Shown here piece by piece: positions 16,816 to 20,062 of a stretch of 34,534 nucleotides of DNA (positions are counted from its first letter, which is position 1; each line of letters starts with the position of its first letter). Both the position numbers and the translations under genes were made by a program. The notes under the pieces are model-generated. The model was not told the origin of the DNA. It did not search any database and worked only from the letters and a program-made list of their open reading frames with translations. Source of the DNA: an uncultured Gammaproteobacteria bacterium (GTDB taxonomy: Bacteria; Pseudomonadota; Gammaproteobacteria; Immundisolibacterales; Immundisolibacteraceae); contig CAJXVN010000006.1 in NCBI GenBank assembly GCA_913060775.1, forward strand, positions 1-34,534, read 5' to 3'.

Positions 16816-17170
16816 GGGAGTCGGCCAGGCAATCGCGTGCTGTTTACAGCGCGAGGAAAGTCCGGGCTCCGTAGGACAAGGTGCCAGGTAACGCCTGGGG
16901 GGTGTGAACCCACGGAAAGTGCCACAGAAAACAGACCGCCATTTTTAATGGTAAGGGTGAAAAGGTGCGGTAAGAGCGCACCGCGCTACTGGTAACAGTA
17001 GTGGCAGGGCAAACCCCACCTGGAGCAAGACCAAATAGAGGAACCGTCAGCTTCGGCTGCAAGGCGTGGTCCGCGCTGTTCCTGGGTAGGTCGCTAGAGC
17101 CCTTTGGTGACGAGGGGCGCAGATGAATGATTGTCCTCGACAGAACCCGGCTTATCGGCCGACTCCCACC
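16816..17170 (+). ncRNA. rnpB: RNase P RNA, bacterial class A
   Basis: This is the catalytic RNA of RNase P, which matures the 5' ends of tRNAs. About 355 nt long. The ends pair perfectly as helix P1: GGGAGTCGGCC (16816-16826) with GGCCGACTCCC (17157-17167), followed by ACC. Conserved segments are present in order: GAGGAAAGTCCGGGCTCC (16853-16870), GGTGCCAGGTAACGCCTGG, AAGGGTGAAAAGGTGCGG, AAGAGCGCACCGCG, GGAGCAAGACCAAATAG and, near the 3' end, AGATGAATGATTGTC with ACAGAACCCGGCTTAT. The order rsmI-rnpB-mraZ is that of Pseudomonas, apart from the pil-like gene inserted here. No clear hairpin-plus-T-run terminator follows. Exact ends are inferred from P1. Confidence 0.97.
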
Positions 17171-18413: not shown

Positions 18414-18461
18414 CGCCTGCCGATCGATCTTAAGGCGCTTGTTGTGTAAGCAATATTTCGC

Positions 18462-18490
18462 TTGACACGGATTGTCGTAAGCCCTAGATT
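18462..18490 (+). promoter_or_regulatory. Promoter of the mraZ/dcw cluster
   Basis: A perfect -35 TTGACA (18462-18467), a 17-bp spacer and TAGATT (18485-18490, 4 of 6) make a good sigma-70 promoter. It predicts a start point near 18497, just before the MraZ repeats. No other strong promoter is apparent between here and mraZ. Confidence 0.75.
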
Positions 18491-18500
18491 TGCCTTCGAG

Positions 18501-18545
18501 TGGGAGTGGGTGGATAAAAATGGCATAAAGTGGGAAAAGGTGGCA
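18501..18545 (+). promoter_or_regulatory. MraZ operator: five TGG repeats at 10-bp spacing
   Basis: TGGGA (18501), TGGAT (18511), TGGCA (18521), TGGGA (18531) and TGGCA (18541) start exactly 10 bp apart. A further TGGGT at 18507 is out of phase. In E. coli, MraZ represses its own operon by binding TGGGN direct repeats separated by 5 bp, the same 10-bp period. The array lies between the predicted start point and the mraZ ATG (18556), so bound MraZ would block early elongation or promoter clearance. Confidence 0.82.
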
Positions 18546-18555
18546 ACTTAAAGCG

Positions 18556-19014
18556 ATGTTTCGTGGTGTCAACAATATAAACCTGGATGTGAAAGGTCGG
18601 ATGGCAGTACCAGCACGCCATCGCGAGCAGTTTGCAGTGGGTGATCAGTATGAGCTGATGTTGACGCTGGCCCATCGAGGAACCTGCCTGCTGCTCTATC
18701 CCCTGTCTGAATGGGAAATGATTGAGCGGCGGTTGATCGAGCTTTCTGATTTAAATAATTCTGCTTATCGCCTTAAACAGATTTTGCTTGGCCACGCGAA
18801 TCTATGTGAGTTTGACGGCAGTGGTCGAGTGCTGATTCCCCCCGTGCTTCGTGAGCATCTGCAAATAGGCAAGCGGGCTGCGCTGGTGGGCATGGGCAAC
18901 AAACTTGAGCTGTGGCAGGAAGAGCGCTGGCAGGAAGAGCGTAATTTGAGTTTAAGCCAGATCGGTGAAACCGATCTTGAGGCTTCGGAGGAATTAAGCG
19001 GGTTAACCCTTTAA
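18556..19014 (+). CDS. mraZ: Transcriptional regulator MraZ
   Basis: MraZ is a ring-forming DNA-binding protein with two SpoVT/AbrB-like domains that represses its own dcw promoter. The 152 residues show both repeats: NLDVKGRMAVPARHREQF (9-26) and FDGSGRVLIPPVLREHL (from residue 86). The N-terminus MFRGVNNINLD matches the family, fixing ATG 18556 even though no good Shine-Dalgarno precedes it; AAAGG at 18536-18540 is 15 bp away. The operator repeats directly upstream fit autorepression. rsmH follows after 7 bp. Confidence 0.96.
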   Translation: MFRGVNNINLDVKGRMAVPARHREQFAVGDQYELMLTLAHRGTCLLLYPLSEWEMIERRLIELSDLNNSAYRLKQILLGHANLCEFDGSGRVLIPPVLREHLQIGKRAALVGMGNKLELWQEERWQEERNLSLSQIGETDLEASEELSGLTL

Positions 19015-19021
19015 CCACCTA

Positions 19022-20062
19022 ATGAATAAACGACCCCATATACCGGTAATGCTGGAGGAGGCTATTCAGGCCCTCGCTTTGCACGACGACGGTATTTATC
19101 TGGATGGGACCGCTGGGGCGGGTGGTCATAGCGCGGCCATTGTTGAACAGTTGGGTGATCAGGGTCGCCTTATCGCGATTGATCGCGATCCGTCGGCGGT
19201 CGCCACCGTGAAAACACGATTTGCCGCTGATGAGCGAGTTGAAGTGATTCATTCGCCTTTTTCAAAAATGGCGGCAGTGGTCGAAGGGCTGGGGCTCGTT
19301 GGCCGCATCAACGGGATTTTGCTTGACCTGGGTGTCTCTTCCATGCAGCTAGATCAGCCTGATCGTGGGTTTAGTTTTATGCGCAGCGGTTCGCTGGATA
19401 TGCGTATGGATACTGCAAATGGGGTCACCCTGGCCGACTGGCTGGCGGAGGTGGACGAGGAGCGGTTAATCCGGGTGCTTCGGGAATATGGCGAGGAGCG
19501 CTTCGCCAGAAAAATAGCGCGTGCCATTCTGGAGCGCCACCGCGAACAGCCGTTGACCACGACGGGTGAGCTCGCTGAGCTCGTTGCCGATTCCATTCCC
19601 CATCACCCGCGGGACAAGCACCCGGCTACTCGTACCTTTCAGGCGTTACGGATTGCGGTAAACGACGAGCTTGGAGAGCTACAGCGCATGTTGGCCCAGG
19701 CCATTGGTCTGCTGGCACCCGGTGGTCGACTGGTGGTGCTGAGCTTCCACTCGCTGGAAGATCGCATGGTCAAGCAGTTTATCCAGAAATTCAGCCAGAC
19801 TGGTCTGGATCTGCCACTCGATTTACCGGTGGTCGATCGCGTGATGAGCGCTCCATTAAAACGAGTCCGTGTGGGCAAAAAGCCGGGCCGTGTTGAGGTC
19901 CGTAATAATCCCCGAAGCCGCAGTGTCATCATGCGAGTTGCCGAACGCACAGAAACGGTTTTCGACGCCGCTGATCAGCGCTGGTCTGATTCTGGAAAAA
20001 CTTCAGACCGCCAGGATTCAAATGCCGGCCAGAACCTGGCTGTGGCCGGGTGCCTGGCGTGA
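19022..20062 (+). CDS. rsmH: 16S rRNA (cytosine-1402 N4)-methyltransferase
   Basis: RsmH (MraW) methylates N4 of C1402 in 16S rRNA, the same nucleotide whose ribose RsmI, also in this window, modifies. The 346 residues show HIPVMLEEAI, the SAM site LDGTAGAGGHS (27-37), LLDLGVSSMQLDQPDRGFSF and SFHSLEDRMVKQF (Phe242-Asp247 core). The C-terminal tail after NPRSRSVIMRVAERT is about 30 residues long and poorly conserved. ATG 19022 has no clear Shine-Dalgarno and probably depends on mraZ translation. Its stop overlaps the ftsL start (TGATG). Confidence 0.96.
   Translation: MNKRPHIPVMLEEAIQALALHDDGIYLDGTAGAGGHSAAIVEQLGDQGRLIAIDRDPSAVATVKTRFAADERVEVIHSPFSKMAAVVEGLGLVGRINGILLDLGVSSMQLDQPDRGFSFMRSGSLDMRMDTANGVTLADWLAEVDEERLIRVLREYGEERFARKIARAILERHREQPLTTTGELAELVADSIPHHPRDKHPATRTFQALRIAVNDELGELQRMLAQAIGLLAPGGRLVVLSFHSLEDRMVKQFIQKFSQTGLDLPLDLPVVDRVMSAPLKRVRVGKKPGRVEVRNNPRSRSVIMRVAERTETVFDAADQRWSDSGKTSDRQDSNAGQNLAVAGCLA

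Follow-up and report, generated by a model that had tools for sequence, protein, structure and literature searches.

A phased array of five TGG boxes upstream of mraZ, very probably an MraZ autoregulatory operator, in an uncultured gammaproteobacterium

The window, the whole stretch of 34,534 nucleotides analysed from contig CAJXVN010000006.1 of an uncultured member of the Immundisolibacteraceae, contains a dcw cluster on its forward strand. The first gene of the cluster, mraZ (18556..19014, +), encodes a protein of 152 aa, the putative binder of the array described here. It is followed by rsmH (mraW; 19022..20062, +), the second gene of the operon, which matches Pfam Methyltransf_5 (E 4.8e-105), and by ftsL from 20050, after which the cluster continues through ftsQ; the genes between ftsL and ftsQ are presumably dcw genes as named from their translations. 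Just upstream of the cluster, a class A RNase P RNA lies at 16817-17170 (+, 345.5 bits), flanked by a PilT/PilU-like ATPase gene (Pfam T2SSE) and by a gene that is, judging from its translation, presumably rsmI. A consensus scan found a single promoter-like site upstream of mraZ, a predicted sigma-70 promoter TTGACA-17-TAGATT with 10 of 12 consensus matches. It consists of a predicted -35 element at 18462..18467 (+) and a predicted -10 element at 18485..18490 (+), from which transcription would start at about 18497. The -35 element, the 17-bp spacing and the -10 element are all present in two congeners, L002 and L003, so that the TAGATT is conserved in three genus members; it differs from the common TATAGT.

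The array sits between the predicted -10, which ends at 18490, and the mraZ start at 18556, leaving 12 nt from its end to the start codon. The region 18537-18556 contains no clear Shine-Dalgarno sequence at the usual spacing before mraZ, and the closest AAGG (18537-18540) is 15 nt from the start codon, in the interval that separates box 4 from box 5. Some relatives have their last box no more than 4 nt from the start codon, so the boxes may double as ribosome-binding sequence.

Five TGG triplets begin at 18501, 18511, 18521, 18531 and 18541, opening the segments TGGGAGTGGG, TGGATAAAAA, TGGCATAAAG, TGGGAAAAGG and TGGCAACTTA, respectively. On re-reading of the sequence, these positions and the period of exactly 10 bp proved to be just as the first-pass annotation had given them. 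Boxes were scored with a matrix made from 258 boxes of 86 three-box genomes. Box 1 (gagTGGGA, TGG at 18501..18503, +, score 4.6), box 2 (gggTGGAT, 18511..18513, +, 5.2) and box 3 (aaaTGGCA, 18521..18523, +, 5.8), the last with A for G before TGG, are weak, while box 4 (aaagTGGGA, 18531..18533, +, 13.6) is a consensus box and the strongest, and box 5 (aaggTGGCA, 18541..18543, +, 9.6) is good. The AAAG preceding TGG is clear in box 4, nearly so in box 5 as AAGG, and partial or absent in boxes 1-3. The array had been called more degenerate than that of E. coli, which holds for boxes 1-3, ranking at percentiles 3.5, 5.4 and 8.1 among the 258 canonical boxes, but not for boxes 4 and 5.

A turn of B-DNA takes about 10.5 bp, slightly more than the period of the array, and on straight DNA this difference would add up to a drift of about 70 degrees over five boxes. 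The earlier description of the boxes as one turn apart on a single DNA face is therefore right as to the 10-bp period, but the spacing falls short of a full turn and the face is not strictly kept. An additional TGGGT at 18507..18511 (+, score 7.3) lies out of phase and had been suggested to allow a shifted register. This alternative register was rejected: there is no TGG at 18497 or 18517, so the element has no in-phase partner 10 bp either way, and no TGG occurs at the equivalent of 18507 in L002 or L003. The extra TGGGT is probably incidental.

The array is not readily produced by base composition. When 18426-18555 was shuffled 20,000 times with dinucleotides preserved, none of the shuffles gave five TGG in a row at period 10 and 2 gave four; with every period from 6 to 15 allowed and the best one taken, none gave five either. 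Across the whole window, on both strands, no other period-10 TGG run longer than three was found, and in the organism's own genome (G000, 3.06 Mb, 90% complete) the five-run is unique to the mraZ array. Four-runs occur at two other places in G000, both inside open frames and largely in CTGG contexts, so the strict pattern gives no second MraZ operator in this genome (four-run TGG, no mismatches allowed, genome 90% complete). A wider MraZ regulon was rejected as far as this strict pattern reaches.

When 369 gammaproteobacterial genomes were scanned by pattern alone, with genes ignored, five RTGG at period 10 were matched in 6 of them. Four of the six matches lie directly upstream of mraZ (this window, G365, G325 and G296), and the remaining two (G363 and G218) are simple tandem repeats. 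Since a backwards control pattern likewise matched 6 genomes of the 369, the count of matches shows no enrichment, and it is their location that is informative. The G363 match (locus L177) is a perfect 10-bp tandem repeat of ATGGTTTGGG that runs for more than 100 bp from base 1502 of the locus; no MraZ frame was found in the L177 locus, and the repeat is unrelated to mraZ.

Comparison with relatives bore the array out. The five TGG triplets are found in exact phase in both congeners, L002 and L003 of the same genus, whose mraZ proteins are 72-73% identical; of the three members of the genus in this comparison, two have assemblies that are not complete (60 and 81%). By box-to-box alignment, the TGG core is identical at 15/15 positions in both congeners, whereas the spacers agree at 12/35 and 14/35 (Fisher p 8e-6 and 4e-5). 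The -10 and box 1 are 10 bp apart here but 11 bp apart in the congeners, and the distance from the array start to the start codon is 55 nt here versus 63. Because both distances have changed while the TGG phase has not, the internal phase is what is kept. Box 3 has ATGG in place of GTGG in each of the three genus members, and in the congeners box 1 is weak and box 2 good (9.8 and 11.6). No mraZ was seen in the fourth congener, G001, whose assembly is 72% complete. Judged by this conservation, the array is to be regarded as functional.

The commonness of such arrays was assessed in a class-wide survey of mraZ upstream regions, taken from the higher-scoring genomes among 212 with MraZ. From 167 loci, L040 (truncated) and L166 (dummy) had no MraZ frame, giving 165 upstream regions. 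Eight second genome copies (L031, L032, L045, L047, L050, L058, L063 and L071) and L103, with less than 100 nt upstream, were left out of these, and 156 remained. The 156 regions are not phylogenetically independent, as three belong to this genus and L035-L037 and L042 look close, and the 9 named contigs among the sources may overlap with other genomes of the set. The longest period-10 TGG run was one in 10 regions, two in 32, three in 86, four in 21, five in 6 and six in 1, so that at least three TGG in phase were found in 114/156. At periods 7, 8, 9, 11, 12 and 13, runs did not exceed two, apart from one three-run at period 12. At least five boxes were found in the three genus members, in L096, L113 and L154, and doubtfully in L157, whose six-run scores low, shows GTGG in few of its boxes and may in part have arisen by chance. 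The sister genus has three strict boxes in L008 and L010 and two in L014; four occur in L009, another member of the order. The first-pass annotation had called the array extended, and it does exceed the three boxes of E. coli; its length, however, is not special, with at least four boxes in 28/156 regions and at least five in 7/156.

In the usual layout across the survey, three AAGTGG boxes come after CTATAGTGT, and 77/114 arrays of at least three boxes have TATAGT close to the first one. An in-phase TG precedes the first TGG by 10 bp in 67/114, mostly inside TATAGTG; the -10 very often reads TATAGTG(T), and a degenerate "box 0" seems to be built into the -10 element in many arrays, a feature for which no description was found in the accessible parts of the literature. 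The window has such an in-phase TG (TGC at 18491), which is poor as a box (score -9.0) and which the one-base shift in the congeners removes. The last box lies 4 to 125 nt from the start codon across the 114 arrays. Within L034-L042, which are OM182 and other marine MAGs, L035-L037, L041 and L042 carry phased boxes about 100 nt upstream of mraZ, implying a longer leader, and L034 has no TGG run of two or more. Operators of MraZ thus differ in length within one class while the 10-bp phase is almost perfectly kept, a pattern consistent with one subunit of the ring for each turn of the DNA.

Box quality changes with array length. With leave-one-out scoring, the mean box score falls from 10.5 at three boxes to 9.2 at four and 9.1 at five (three versus at least four, p 0.0002); a matrix trained on three-box arrays alone is biased for this comparison, and its value (p 4e-6) was set aside. 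For the best three consecutive boxes, the score is no different between three-box arrays and longer ones (p 0.74). It is thus the weak outer boxes that lower the mean, and a longer array resembles a normal core supplemented by weak additional boxes. Compensation, in which more boxes would be needed because each is weaker, was rejected, as the best-three core is not weaker.

The equality of the best three boxes, and the low scores of boxes 1-3 beside the good scores of 4 and 5, also speak for a shorter working operator, formed by the 3' part alone (boxes 3-5 or 4-5), with boxes 1 and 2 as weak or chance extensions. Against this stand the retention in both congeners of every TGG, those of boxes 1 and 2 among them, despite the change of the spacers, and the strength of box 2 there. 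On balance, a working operator confined to the 3' boxes is a real possibility, held to be somewhat less probable than its negation.

The product of mraZ matches Pfam PF02381 with 101.5 bits against a cut-off of 23, in two stretches corresponding to the AbrB-like halves. An AlphaFold2 model, built from 12 sequences with a mean pLDDT of 83.7, superposes on 1n0e and 9qlg with Z 19.2 and rmsd 3.1 over 136 residues, on the DNA complex 9sz7 with Z 18.5 and rmsd 3.2 over 138 residues, and on the DNA complex 9r4j with Z 17.8 and rmsd 3.5 over 138 residues; the next unrelated fold reached Z 5.2. The identity of the protein as MraZ is confirmed by family and fold.

Taken together, the phasing, the location before mraZ and the conservation in congeners uphold the earlier reading of an MraZ-type operator at the level of sequence, and the five-box array is very probably the MraZ autoregulatory operator of the dcw promoter, with binding and repression carried over from other species. 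By analogy with other species, each TGG box, ideally AAAGTGG, would make contact with a single subunit of the MraZ ring, adjacent subunits being matched to successive turns of the DNA by the 10-bp spacing. On the predicted transcript the boxes would extend from about +3 to about +47, touching the downstream edge of the promoter as well as the early transcribed bases, so that bound MraZ would block the start of RNA polymerase or its escape from the promoter. Box 4 would probably be the anchor of the ring, with help from its neighbours 5 and 3, and boxes 1 and 2 would add weak contacts on the outside. More ring subunits may be engaged than at a shorter operator, as the first-pass annotation suggested; given the low scores of boxes 1-3 and the A before TGG in box 3, fewer than five may be bound.

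A bolder proposal is that the operator was remodelled in this genus, in that the -10 box is not kept in all members and two boxes were gained downstream, so that five adjacent subunits would hold one DNA, exceeding the number in the solved four-box complex, and would give steeper cooperative autorepression. This is considered unlikely. If true, the natural number of boxes, from 2 to 6 across the class, would be an evolvable dial for dcw expression. Natural operators of two to five boxes are ready material for measuring box number against the strength of dcw autoregulation, while the locus itself is an ordinary operator.

Two readings other than a protein-binding DNA site were weighed. An RNA-level element in the mraZ leader, whose UGG/GGA repeats would be bound by an RNA-binding protein or would act on translation, gains something from the position of the array, downstream of the predicted transcription start and ending shortly before the start codon, yet is very improbable: the 10-bp phasing is a signature of DNA geometry, the in-phase TG of many arrays lies mostly within the untranscribed -10, and the last box lies at widely differing distances from the start codon. 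No leader RNA was found at the array by Rfam. Hardly credible, and slightly less so than an RNA element, is a G-quadruplex controlling mraZ, as reported for the S. aureus mraZ promoter region with a claim of Gram-negative conservation in the accessible part of PMC11796246, since the 130 nt upstream of mraZ contain no G4 motif (four G-runs of 2 or 3, loops of at most 7), the 3-tetrad form is found in 0/3 genus members and in 7/114 arrays of at least three boxes, and G4 folding would leave the exact 10-bp phasing unexplained.

The operator reading of the array agrees with the known MraZ systems. E. coli had been said to have three repeats of this period, and its mraZ upstream region (L167) was confirmed to contain three boxes at 10 bp. 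As here, the TGG boxes of the E. coli promoter Pmra (mraZ1p) lie downstream of the promoter and just before mraZ; they differ in number, three versus five, and are closer to consensus, with a mean score of 11.7 versus 7.9. MraZ of E. coli is a dodecamer. Repression of Pmra by E. coli MraZ is cited in the available portions of PMC8475190 and PMC7761207, and repression by MraZ of M. genitalium in those of PMC8475190. In the portion of PMC7761207 available, Burkholderia cenocepacia MraZ shifts a 250-bp fragment with four 7-nt repeats separated by 3-nt spacers, placed downstream of the -10 and over the transcription start; this promoter, PmraBc, resembles the array in its period of 10 and in its position downstream of the -10, and differs in having four repeats. 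The Mollicutes site is given as (AAAGTGKN3)3 in the available text of PMC5282649, and it shares with the array the AAAGTGG core and the period, along with a matching protein fold; its sites have three or four boxes, and its MraZ is distant, with 24-25% identity in the aligned structures. Entries 9r4j and 9sz7, as far as their records go, are cryo-EM structures of M. genitalium MraZ with promoter DNA, the latter titled "in complex with 4 box promoter"; no paper describing these 2026 MraZ-DNA structures was found in the literature, and the text of PMC9395523 contains no box terms. Arrays of five TGG at 10 bp before mraZ also occur in L096, L113 and L154 and in G365, G325 and G296, of other families, with the difference that at least in L113 the array starts upstream of the -10. 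In conclusion, four-box operators are already on record for B. cenocepacia and, by the title of 9sz7, for M. genitalium, and an array of five, one box above these recorded operators, is a length variant from the upper tail that nevertheless recurs.
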